Below are positions 41,114 to 43,097 of a stretch of DNA of 64,000 nt, piece by piece. The translations under genes and the position numbers were made by a program. The DNA lies in the NCBI RefSeq assembly GCF_900188225.1, contig NZ_FZOC01000001.1, forward strand, positions 186,001-250,000, written 5' to 3'. The notes beneath the pieces are model-generated. The model ran no database searches, had not been told where the DNA came from, and saw nothing but the letters and a program-made list of their open reading frames with translations. This DNA comes from Humidesulfovibrio mexicanus. Lineage in GTDB: Bacteria > Desulfobacterota > Desulfovibrionia > Desulfovibrionales > Desulfovibrionaceae. Numbering within the stretch: position 1 is the first letter of the stretch; the number at the start of each line of letters is the position of its first letter.

Positions 41114-41140
41114 TAAAGTTTTTTAAGGAAAGACCGATAG
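41114..41140 (+). promoter_or_regulatory. Sigma-28 (FliA) flagellar-type promoter
   Basis: TAAAGTTT (41114-41121), an 11-base spacer and ACCGATAG (41133-41140). Consensus TAAAGTTT-N11-GCCGATAA differs at two positions only. It lies about 50 bp before the small repeat-protein gene. Confidence 0.85.
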
Positions 41141-41192
41141 GACGCGAAGAAGGCGTTGTCTTAACCTGCGGCGTCAAGGAGGTGGTCACGGC

Positions 41193-41483
41193 ATGTCAAT
41201 CAGCTCCATCAGCGGGTCCTCATCCGGCTACGGCTCCGACCTGTTCGGCGCCCAGGTGGTGAGCAAGACTCTGGATTACATGAACAACCAAGGCTCCGGA
41301 AGCGATTACGCCATAACCGACAAGCAGAGCTTCGGAGCAGCCGTTGTCTCCAAGACCCTGGACTACATGAACAGCGGCGGCAGCAGCGGCGGCTCCGACA
41401 TGGCCCAGACCTACGACTTCAACAAGAGCGTCCTTTCCGGCTACATGTCCGGCATAGGGCAGTTCGCCGACTACAACATCTAA
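41193..41483 (+). CDS. Small tandem-repeat protein, possible YjfB-like motility protein
   Basis: 96 residues, Ser/Gly-rich. A 14-residue unit (FGAxVVSKTLDYMN) occurs twice, at residues 18-31 and 47-60. The codons of the copies differ at synonymous sites, so the protein sequence is under selection. A weaker third copy may be DFNKSVLSGYM near residue 75. The 'MSISSIS...VVSKTLD' layout recalls the short YjfB putative motility family, but that link is tentative. AAGGAGGT lies about 10 bases before the ATG. A sigma-28 promoter drives it, so it is probably co-expressed with late flagellar genes. Confidence 0.75.
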   Translation: MSISSISGSSSGYGSDLFGAQVVSKTLDYMNNQGSGSDYAITDKQSFGAAVVSKTLDYMNSGGSSGGSDMAQTYDFNKSVLSGYMSGIGQFADYNI

Positions 41484-41512
41484 GCGCCCAGCCCTGACGA
41501 CGCCGTTCGAAA

Positions 41513-41541
41513 GCCCCGCCGAGGCCAGTCCTTGGCGGGGC
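41513..41541 (+). terminator. Terminator of the sigma-28-driven gene
   Basis: GCCCCGCCGAGG (41513-41524) and CCTTGGCGGGGC (41530-41541) form a 12-bp stem with one G-T pair and a 5-base loop, 29 bp after the stop. The following T content is weak (ATTGTCGTGTCT). Confidence 0.65.
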
Positions 41542-41678
41542 ATTGTCGTGTCTAAAATCGCCCCCTGCACGATGCTGGAAATGCCGCGGCCAGGGGCGTA
41601 CACTTGCCAGACGGACCAAGAACGGCTAAAGGGCGTCCTCCAACCTCCCCCCACGAACAGCCCAAGGAACACCAAGAC

Positions 41679-43097
41679 GTGAGCAGGGAACAGCACAAAG
41701 TACTTATCGCAAACCGGGGCGAAATCGCCGTGCGCATCATGCAGGCGTGCCGCGACCTCGGACTTGGTTTCGTCGCCGTCTACACCCGGGAAGACGCAGC
41801 CTCCGGCCACGTGTCCCTCGCCAGGGAACTGGGCGGCGAACAGGCCCTGGTGCGCATCCACAACTATCTCGACGCGGGCGACATCCTCTCCGCTGCCGAT
41901 GCCAGCGGCGCCACGGCAATCCATCCCGGCTACGGGTTCTTCTCGGAAAACTACCGCTTCGCACGCCGGGTCGAGGAACGCTCCCGCCCGATGGTGTTCA
42001 TCGGCCCGTCCTGGCGCGTTATCCGCGACCTGGGCGACAAGATCAACACCAAGCGGCTGGCGAGACGCCTGGGTGTCCCCACTGTGCCGGGCAGCGACCG
42101 CGCCATCTACGACGAGATGGAGGCAGAGACCATCGCCCAGCAGCTCTTCGACTACCAGGAGCGGCAGGGGGTGGCCAAACCCATGGTGCTGGTCAAGGCC
42201 AGCGCGGGCGGCGGCGGCATGGGCATTGACGAAGTGCACAGCATGAACCGCTTCCGGCAGACCTACCGGCGCATTCGAAACTATTCCCAGCGCCAGTTCA
42301 ACGACCCCGGCGTGCTCATCGAGCAGCGCATCTTCAATTACAACCACTTGGAAGTGCAAATCGTTTCCGCAAGAGGCGGGGACAACCCCGTGCACTTCGG
42401 TACGCGCAACTGCTCTGTGCAAAGCCCCGGCAGGCAGAAGCGCATCGAGACCGCACCAGGATTCGCCCCGGAAAGCCTCGCCTACAGCTTCGACGCCCGG
42501 AAGGTCATGGACGACATCGTGCGCCACTCCCTGTCCATCGCGCGCGAAATCAAGTACGACAACGTCGGCACCTGGGAATGGATCGTCACCCCCAAGGGCG
42601 AGCCCTTTCTCATGGAAGTCAACACGCGCATCCAGGTGGAGAACGGAGTTTCGGCCGCCATCGCCCGCATCAAAGGCCAGCCGGGCGTCAACCTGATCCG
42701 GGAGCAGATTCGCCTGGGACTTGGCGAGCCCATGGGCTACACCCAGCAGGACGTCAGCTTCGACGGCGTGGGCATCGAGTACCGCATCATCGCCGAGGAC
42801 ACGCAAAACCGCTTCGCCCCTTGGACCGGCCGCATAGAGAAGATCGCCTGGCGTGATGAGCCCTGGCTCAAGCTGCACACCCATGTGCCCCAGGACCGCC
42901 CCTATCAGATCCCCACCGAGTACGACCCCAACTTGGCTCTCGCCATCGTTTGGGGCAAGGATCTCGAAGAGGCCAAGGCGCGCGGCGCCGCCTTCCTGGA
43001 TGATTTCGTGCTGACCGGCGTGGACGCCCAAGGCCTGGAGCTCAAGTCGAATATCGCCTTCCTGCGCGAGAAAACACAGGATCTGCTGGAATTTTAA
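41679..43097 (+). CDS. accC: Biotin carboxylase subunit of acetyl-CoA carboxylase (divergent)
   Basis: 472 residues from a GTG start (VSREQHKVLIANRGEIAVR), with AAGGA about 9 bases upstream. ATP-grasp marks are KASAGGGGMGI, HLEVQIV and LMEVNTRIQVEN. The usual 'QVEHP' is QVENG and 'QRRxQK' is SPGRQK, so it is a divergent member. Catalytic Glu, Asn and Arg of the EVNTRIQVE strand are kept. It lies 20 bp before the fused carboxyltransferase, and the pair should form an acyl-CoA carboxylase. No biotin carrier gene is in the window. Confidence 0.88.
   Translation: MSREQHKVLIANRGEIAVRIMQACRDLGLGFVAVYTREDAASGHVSLARELGGEQALVRIHNYLDAGDILSAADASGATAIHPGYGFFSENYRFARRVEERSRPMVFIGPSWRVIRDLGDKINTKRLARRLGVPTVPGSDRAIYDEMEAETIAQQLFDYQERQGVAKPMVLVKASAGGGGMGIDEVHSMNRFRQTYRRIRNYSQRQFNDPGVLIEQRIFNYNHLEVQIVSARGGDNPVHFGTRNCSVQSPGRQKRIETAPGFAPESLAYSFDARKVMDDIVRHSLSIAREIKYDNVGTWEWIVTPKGEPFLMEVNTRIQVENGVSAAIARIKGQPGVNLIREQIRLGLGEPMGYTQQDVSFDGVGIEYRIIAEDTQNRFAPWTGRIEKIAWRDEPWLKLHTHVPQDRPYQIPTEYDPNLALAIVWGKDLEEAKARGAAFLDDFVLTGVDAQGLELKSNIAFLREKTQDLLEF

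Follow-up and report, generated by a model that had tools for sequence, protein, structure and literature searches.

A small repeat-bearing protein behind a FliA-type promoter in Humidesulfovibrio mexicanus: a candidate accessory component of the flagellum in Desulfovibrionales

A promoter of the FliA (sigma-28) type that stands apart from the flagellar genes raises the question of what its gene product does. Such a promoter precedes the gene of a 96-residue protein in a stretch of 64,000 nucleotides from Humidesulfovibrio mexicanus (C1:186001-250000 of the host genome), which we call the window. Judging from sequence comparison, we propose that this gene encodes a small, probably cytoplasmic and mostly helical accessory protein of the flagellum that works like YjfB, and we assign this reading a probability of roughly 0.65. 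The coordinates of the features are collected in Table 1.

Table 1. Features at the locus (positions within the window)
Feature	Position	Strand	Remark
FliA/sigma-28-type promoter TAAAGTTT-N11-ACCGATAG	41114..41140	+	14/16 against the consensus, 79 nt upstream of the ATG
Ribosome-binding site AGGAGGT	41177..41183	+	read directly from the sequence
Gene of the 96-aa protein, unnamed family	41193..41483	+	dN/dS below 1 in 13 computable of 14 pairs
Repeat unit 1, FGAQVVSKTLDYMN, residues 18-31	41244..41285	+	predicted helix 15-31, low-confidence model
Repeat unit 2, FGAAVVSKTLDYMN, residues 47-60	41331..41372	+	predicted helix 44-60, low-confidence model
Conserved C-terminal segment YDFNKSVL...GIG	41397..41474	+	predicted helix 69-94, low-confidence model
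G+C-rich 12-bp hairpin 3' of the stop, possible terminator without T-run	41513..41541	+	z -3.06

The open reading frame begins 9 nt downstream of the ribosome-binding site and is present as a single copy in the host genome. As the initial annotation had described, its product carries the 14-residue unit FGA[Q/A]VVSKTLDYMN twice. Of the 14 codons, 8 are different between the two units, compared with one of the 14 residues, and a DNA repeat search did not detect the pair. This synonymous divergence had been read as a sign of selection on the protein, and the orthologues agree: dN/dS lies between 0.04 and 0.40 in 13 of the 14 pairs compared, the remaining pair being saturated at synonymous sites. 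The comparison supports the maintenance of the gene by purifying selection on the protein. Of the terminator that had been ascribed to the gene, a strong hairpin stands, but the T-run is absent and the terminator scan did not report the structure. Long antisense frames over real genes, such as the one at 41220-43031 on the minus strand, are expected in G+C-rich DNA and were not counted as genes.

An AlphaFold2 model of the window protein contains three helices at low confidence (pLDDT 55), and that of a single-unit relative contains two (pLDDT 61), which hints at a helical protein that may become ordered on a partner. Amphipathicity of the helices of the window protein was not significant. The two matches to solved structures, the better one being the AlgoCIS inner protein with an E-value of 0.42, are at chance level.

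The FliA consensus of E. coli is TAAAGTTT-N11-GCCGATAA, and boxes were scored as matches out of its 16 positions. The window box combines TAAAGTTT at 41114-41121 with ACCGATAG at 41133-41140 across an 11-nt spacer and is indeed the near-consensus sigma-28 promoter, two positions off, that had been reported; 50 shuffles of the 250-nt upstream region gave a best score of 12, compared with 14/16 for the real box. The exact sequence TAAAGTTT-N12-CCGATA occurs in the host genome at the window box only. With two mismatches allowed, the host genome yields five box matches versus ten for a backwards control, i.e. no enrichment, and weak boxes elsewhere in this genome therefore count for little. One of four two-mismatch boxes (L118), lying inside a long ORF, was dropped. 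Another of the four (L119, G000:C1:700885-700910, minus strand), a 13/16 FliA-type box, was retained because of its context: it is located directly upstream of a cytochrome c554-type gene. A HAMP/PAS sensor gene comes next, and its match to an MCP sensor model remains under the cut-off; these genes are perhaps a FliA-driven operon for a heme-linked chemoreceptor. A looser pattern of different shape, which by its letters is unable to match the window's own box, gave four matches in the host genome and none in the control. One of these belongs to an FlxA-like gene (L156:1199-1846, minus strand; 26.6 bits, cut-off 26.3), with the FliA-type box TCAAG-N15-GCCGATAT about 53 nt upstream of the open frame, and the other three (L155, L157 and L158) have no clear target. 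One host flagellin is preceded by an 11/16 box that may be due to chance, the other by a sigma-54-like TGGCAC-N6-TGCA recognized by eye. In two genera, FliA-type boxes precede genes for proteins of roughly 140 aa (L162:99-536 and L164:131-541), whose starts look alike by eye and which match no Pfam family over the cut-off.

The protein belongs to a family of its own. A contig scan gave 29 relatives, 25 of them with titles of the Desulfovibrionales group; relative L030, titled Methylomirabilis, lies on a 5.7-kb contig and may be misbinned. Within the order, the family profile (30-row alignment A1, E ≤ 0.001) matched 174 of 348 genomes, spread over 37 of 59 genera; of 297 genomes sampled from the phylum it matched 8, four of these outside the order. 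Members share the core [DK]KQTFGAxVVxKTLDYMN once or twice, then YDFQKSVLxA and a G-x-G near the C-terminus. Single-unit members are found in several genera and outside the order, and the window protein is thus the two-unit version; its repeat unit 2 is the one that aligns with the single unit of the short relatives. The window protein stays below the cut-off of every Pfam and NCBIfam model. When 65 members were compared with Pfam, the weak matches (E ≤ 1) that recurred most often were to DUF5858, with 16 members (best E 0.0038; 13 bits on the window protein, cut-off 27), and to YjfB (PF14070), with 10 (best E 0.013), and NCBIfam gave seven single-member matches with E-values of 0.02-0.09. A phage or plasmid origin was considered and gave no match. 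In genus g39 the profile counts two family matches in most genomes, and at one Solidesulfovibrio locus (L010:4700-4980) a second family copy seems, by eye, to end just upstream of the first. A literature search for YjfB, FliA, Desulfovibrio motility and the motif, with most subscription papers outside its reach, returned no report of the family.

Is the promoter a property of the family or of this one genome? We compared one hand-picked representative of each of 36 genera, four of them outside the order and the other 32 taken from its 37 positive genera. Upstream of the start, at 55-95 nt, 23 have a box of 12/16 or better, 17 one of 13 or better and 9 one of 14 or better. The means over dinucleotide shuffles for these three thresholds are 0.12, 0.01 and 0, respectively. 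At the same loci, none of 275 mechanical control ORF starts reaches 12 and seven reach 11, these controls being the first ATG of open frames of at least 200 aa on both strands, many of them not genes or with wrong starts. A box at promoter distance that is kept across genera is what we take to mark a member of the FliA regulon, and this is found here. Ribosome-binding sites precede most family starts, although the automatic choice of starts was wrong for L008 and L031 and is doubtful for L101, where the start used is upstream of the likely ATG. In the other 13 genera there is no box of at least 12 between 55 and 95 nt; in one of them, g3 (L099), a box of 14/16 stands farther out, at 115 nt. 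The box is missing at that 55-95 nt position from Nitratidesulfovibrio (g12), Solidesulfovibrio (g39), g24, g50 and some further genera, although these encode FliA. Replacement by a sigma-70 promoter in the box-less genera looked plausible by eye, but only 1 of 13 scores at least 9, with a shuffle rate of 6.5% per sequence, and no convincing sigma-54 site was found there either. As far as the upstream regions tell, expression in these lineages must be driven by something other than the box.

Presence of the family is linked with that of FliA, which exceeds the TIGR02479 cut-off in 286 of the 348 genomes of the order. In the high-quality set (at least 90% complete, at most 5% contamination; n = 246, of which 220 with and 26 without FliA by hand count), 137 of 220 FliA-positive genomes carry the family in comparison to 0 of 26 FliA-negative ones (Fisher p 1e-10, not corrected for phylogeny); 83 of the 220 have FliA and lack the family. 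Eight FliA-lacking genomes do carry it. All of them are 54-89% complete, so that a missing contig can explain these cases. In genera g51 and g52 the FliA-lacking members are without the family and some FliA-bearing members have it, and whole genera, e.g. g18, are without it regardless of FliA.

The window gene is flanked by a divergent ribosomal protein S1-type gene (ATG read as 40997, minus strand) and a biotin carboxylase gene (plus strand), and the remaining scanned neighbours encode a two-ABC-domain ATPase, two glycosyltransferases, an acetyl-CoA carboxylase, an EAL/GGDEF protein, a ferritin and a RecD2-type helicase; none of these nine is flagellar. The host fliA is located at C1:175096, 51 kb from the window gene, and its flagellar cluster ends 48 kb away. 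For the one cluster examined, the initial annotation was therefore right to place the gene apart from flagellar clusters. The commonest neighbour family of the family genes occurs at 11 of 56 loci and neighbours otherwise vary; among ten neighbours scanned in other genera, the flagellar one is the FliL of locus L101. At this locus, in genus g48 of another family of the order, the family member follows co-directional fliA, cheY, fliL (PF03748), a 102-aa ORF and the gene of a 141-aa protein with, by eye, a transmembrane segment and a helix-turn-helix (TM/HTH). This row recurs in the host genome as fliA-cheY-fliL-orf-(185-aa ORF)-TM/HTH (L159:1685-4313), with a TM/HTH protein that is 47.6% identical; here the family gene lies 48 kb from the row and has its own FliA box. 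The 185-aa ORF of the host row is missing from the L101 row and matches no Pfam family. Homologues of FliL, FliA or the TM/HTH protein were found at L101 only among the family loci searched, many of which reach just 1.5 kb from the gene.

PMC11607428 places a TM+HTH gene together with YjfB and sigma-28 in one sub-module, and describes YjfB in 2024 as a still uncharacterised small protein linked to sigma-28. Of the family loci searched, L101 alone shows company of this type, with the TM/HTH protein assigned by eye. YjfB resembles the window family in its small size, in a helical segment V-x-K-[KT]-[AT]-L-D, in the FliA box upstream of YjfB-like genes of Desulfobacterota (5 of 10 and 27 of 30), in the one-locus company of sigma-28 and a TM+HTH gene and in its uncharacterised function, but has no counterpart of the repeated unit and of the YDFQKSVL C-terminus. 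A loose resemblance to YjfB was all that had been claimed, and this is also what we find: the window protein scores 13.0 bits against PF14070 (cut-off 27, E 0.11), and profile-profile comparison does not find the link. For this comparison, ten YjfB-like proteins of the phylum (PF14070 E ≤ 0.01, two of them over the cut-off) were aligned as set A3; a FliA box scoring 13 or more precedes five of their ten genes. The hhalign probability against A3 is 4.4% for the single-unit members and 2.1% for the 65 members, or 6.7% and 3.2% when the comparison is repeated without sequence L069. Column-permuted controls reached the single-unit score in 0 of 150 cases and in 0 of 120 without L069, and 1 of 150 equalled the score of the 65-row set; these controls are lenient, as helix periodicity is destroyed and the 150-permutation run kept L069 in A3. 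With 13.0 versus 27 bits and hhalign probabilities of 2-7%, membership in YjfB was rejected, and a distant link may still exist.

A second family bears on this relation. Proteins of about 60 aa from genus g18 (L165-L194, alignment A5), one scanned member of which scores 20.5 bits against the PF14070 cut-off of 27, align with A3 without L069 at an hhalign probability of 91.8%, and are likely a missed branch of YjfB. They were found in 43 of 79 genomes of g18 by single-sequence search, and a profile search across the order detected them in 52 of 348 genomes, all in g11, g18, g32 and g40. In g18, 27 of the 30 genes read are preceded at 65-86 nt by a FliA box scoring 13 or more; the other three score 11, 10 and 8. 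Compared with A5, the window family reaches an hhalign probability of 0.2-0.6%, with 6 of 120 permutations as good. None of the 52 A5 genomes carries the window family. Among the high-quality genomes, A5 is present in 37 of 220 with FliA and in 1 of 26 without (p 0.09; hand count), the exception being G135. In a midpoint-rooted tree built from 40 rows of FliA, one clade (99/92) unites the A5 carriers with a single row that has neither family; this clade lies amid carriers of the window family and is sister to Nitratidesulfovibrio (98/91). The mutual exclusion thus amounts to a single clade and hence to one or few events. In-place replacement by the A5 gene was considered, and no neighbours are shared with the Nitratidesulfovibrio loci within the 1.5-kb flanks. 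We tentatively suggest, at somewhat less than even odds, that two families without detectable relation, the window family and YjfB, are interchangeable solutions to one late-flagellar task. In Desulfovibrionales the window family would have come first, as the midpoint-rooted tree has it; the FliA box would have been lost in the Nitratidesulfovibrio lineage, and in its sister clade a YjfB-like protein whose gene carries a FliA box would have supplanted the family.

These likenesses could also mean that the window family is a true YjfB homologue that has diverged past sequence detection. The VVxKTLD helix is in register with VxKKALD of the YjfB-like proteins, the single-unit hhalign score exceeds every permuted control in both runs, the sizes are similar, many single-unit members start with Met-Asp or Met-Glu and a G-x-G stands near the C-terminus; FliA boxes at 5/10 and 27/30 YjfB-like genes and the shared company at one locus point the same way. 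We nevertheless regard homology as doubtful in view of the low PF14070 scores of the window protein and of the best member, the hhalign probabilities of 2.1-6.7%, the still lower values with A5 and the one permutation in 150 that equals the 65-row set. The anti-sigma-28 factor FlgM (PF04316) is likewise small and part of this circuit, as we propose for the window protein, but the latter has no match to PF04316 and the host has a separate FlgM. The host FlxA-like gene (PF14282) is also located behind a FliA-type box, but the window protein does not match this model.

Fed proteins of Campylobacter are small, FliA-driven and secreted, and are co-expressed with late flagellar genes. The window protein resembles them, at the level of general description, in its candidate co-expression with such genes, and it might accordingly be a late substrate of the flagellar secretion system or a secreted factor that acts outside the cell. 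FliA-type control would suit late export, as would a Ser/Gly-rich protein without Cys and with low predicted order; we consider export unlikely because the N-terminus is variable and conservation resides in the helices and at the C-terminal end, and because the L101 copy sits among regulatory and basal-body genes and not among filament genes. It is less probable still that the family consists of general non-flagellar proteins (surface, stress or signalling) which FliA drives by chance in many lineages: the retention in 0/26 high-quality FliA-lacking genomes and the copy in the flagellar row speak against it, even if several FliA-bearing genera lack the box and the gene stands alone among changing neighbours. 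Hardly credible, finally, is a conserved element that is a sigma-28-driven small RNA with a hairpin and in which the ORF is secondary. The 3' hairpin is strong and sigma-28-dependent flagellar sRNAs are published (PMC10578931), but dN/dS is below 1, conservation at the protein level extends across genera and to other families of the phylum, and most starts have a ribosome-binding site ahead of them.

We favour the accessory protein of the flagellum. The initial annotation had put the gene forward as a FliA-driven candidate for a late flagellar component, and the box in 23/36 genera, the 0/26 FliA-negative genomes, the L101 row and the exclusion with FliA-boxed YjfB-like proteins all support this candidacy. 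A FliA-type promoter would place synthesis late, once hook and basal body are complete and FlgM is exported, and the window protein would be made alongside other late flagellar and chemotaxis genes. One or two helices FGAxVVxKTLDYMN, the Ser/Gly-rich linkers and the C-terminal helix would then fold on a late flagellar partner, for which our best guess is a product of the fliA-cheY-fliL-TM/HTH module because one genus keeps the family gene in this module. The second repeat unit may make the binding bivalent. In sum, we infer that the gene is expressed late in vivo, that its product shares a flagellar task with YjfB and that the repeated helix serves in binding.

A second family with a YjfB-type promoter, one shared context and a complementary distribution suggests that a late-flagellum task has been solved in more than one way. 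One order holds genomes of either family, and a fliA deletion strain of Desulfovibrio ferrophilus exists, whose flagella appeared shorter (PMC9769857) and which would suit a direct test provided that it carries the gene; the task is therefore testable by deletion and cross-complementation. The window family is a candidate for a new accessory component in bacterial motility that experiments can address.
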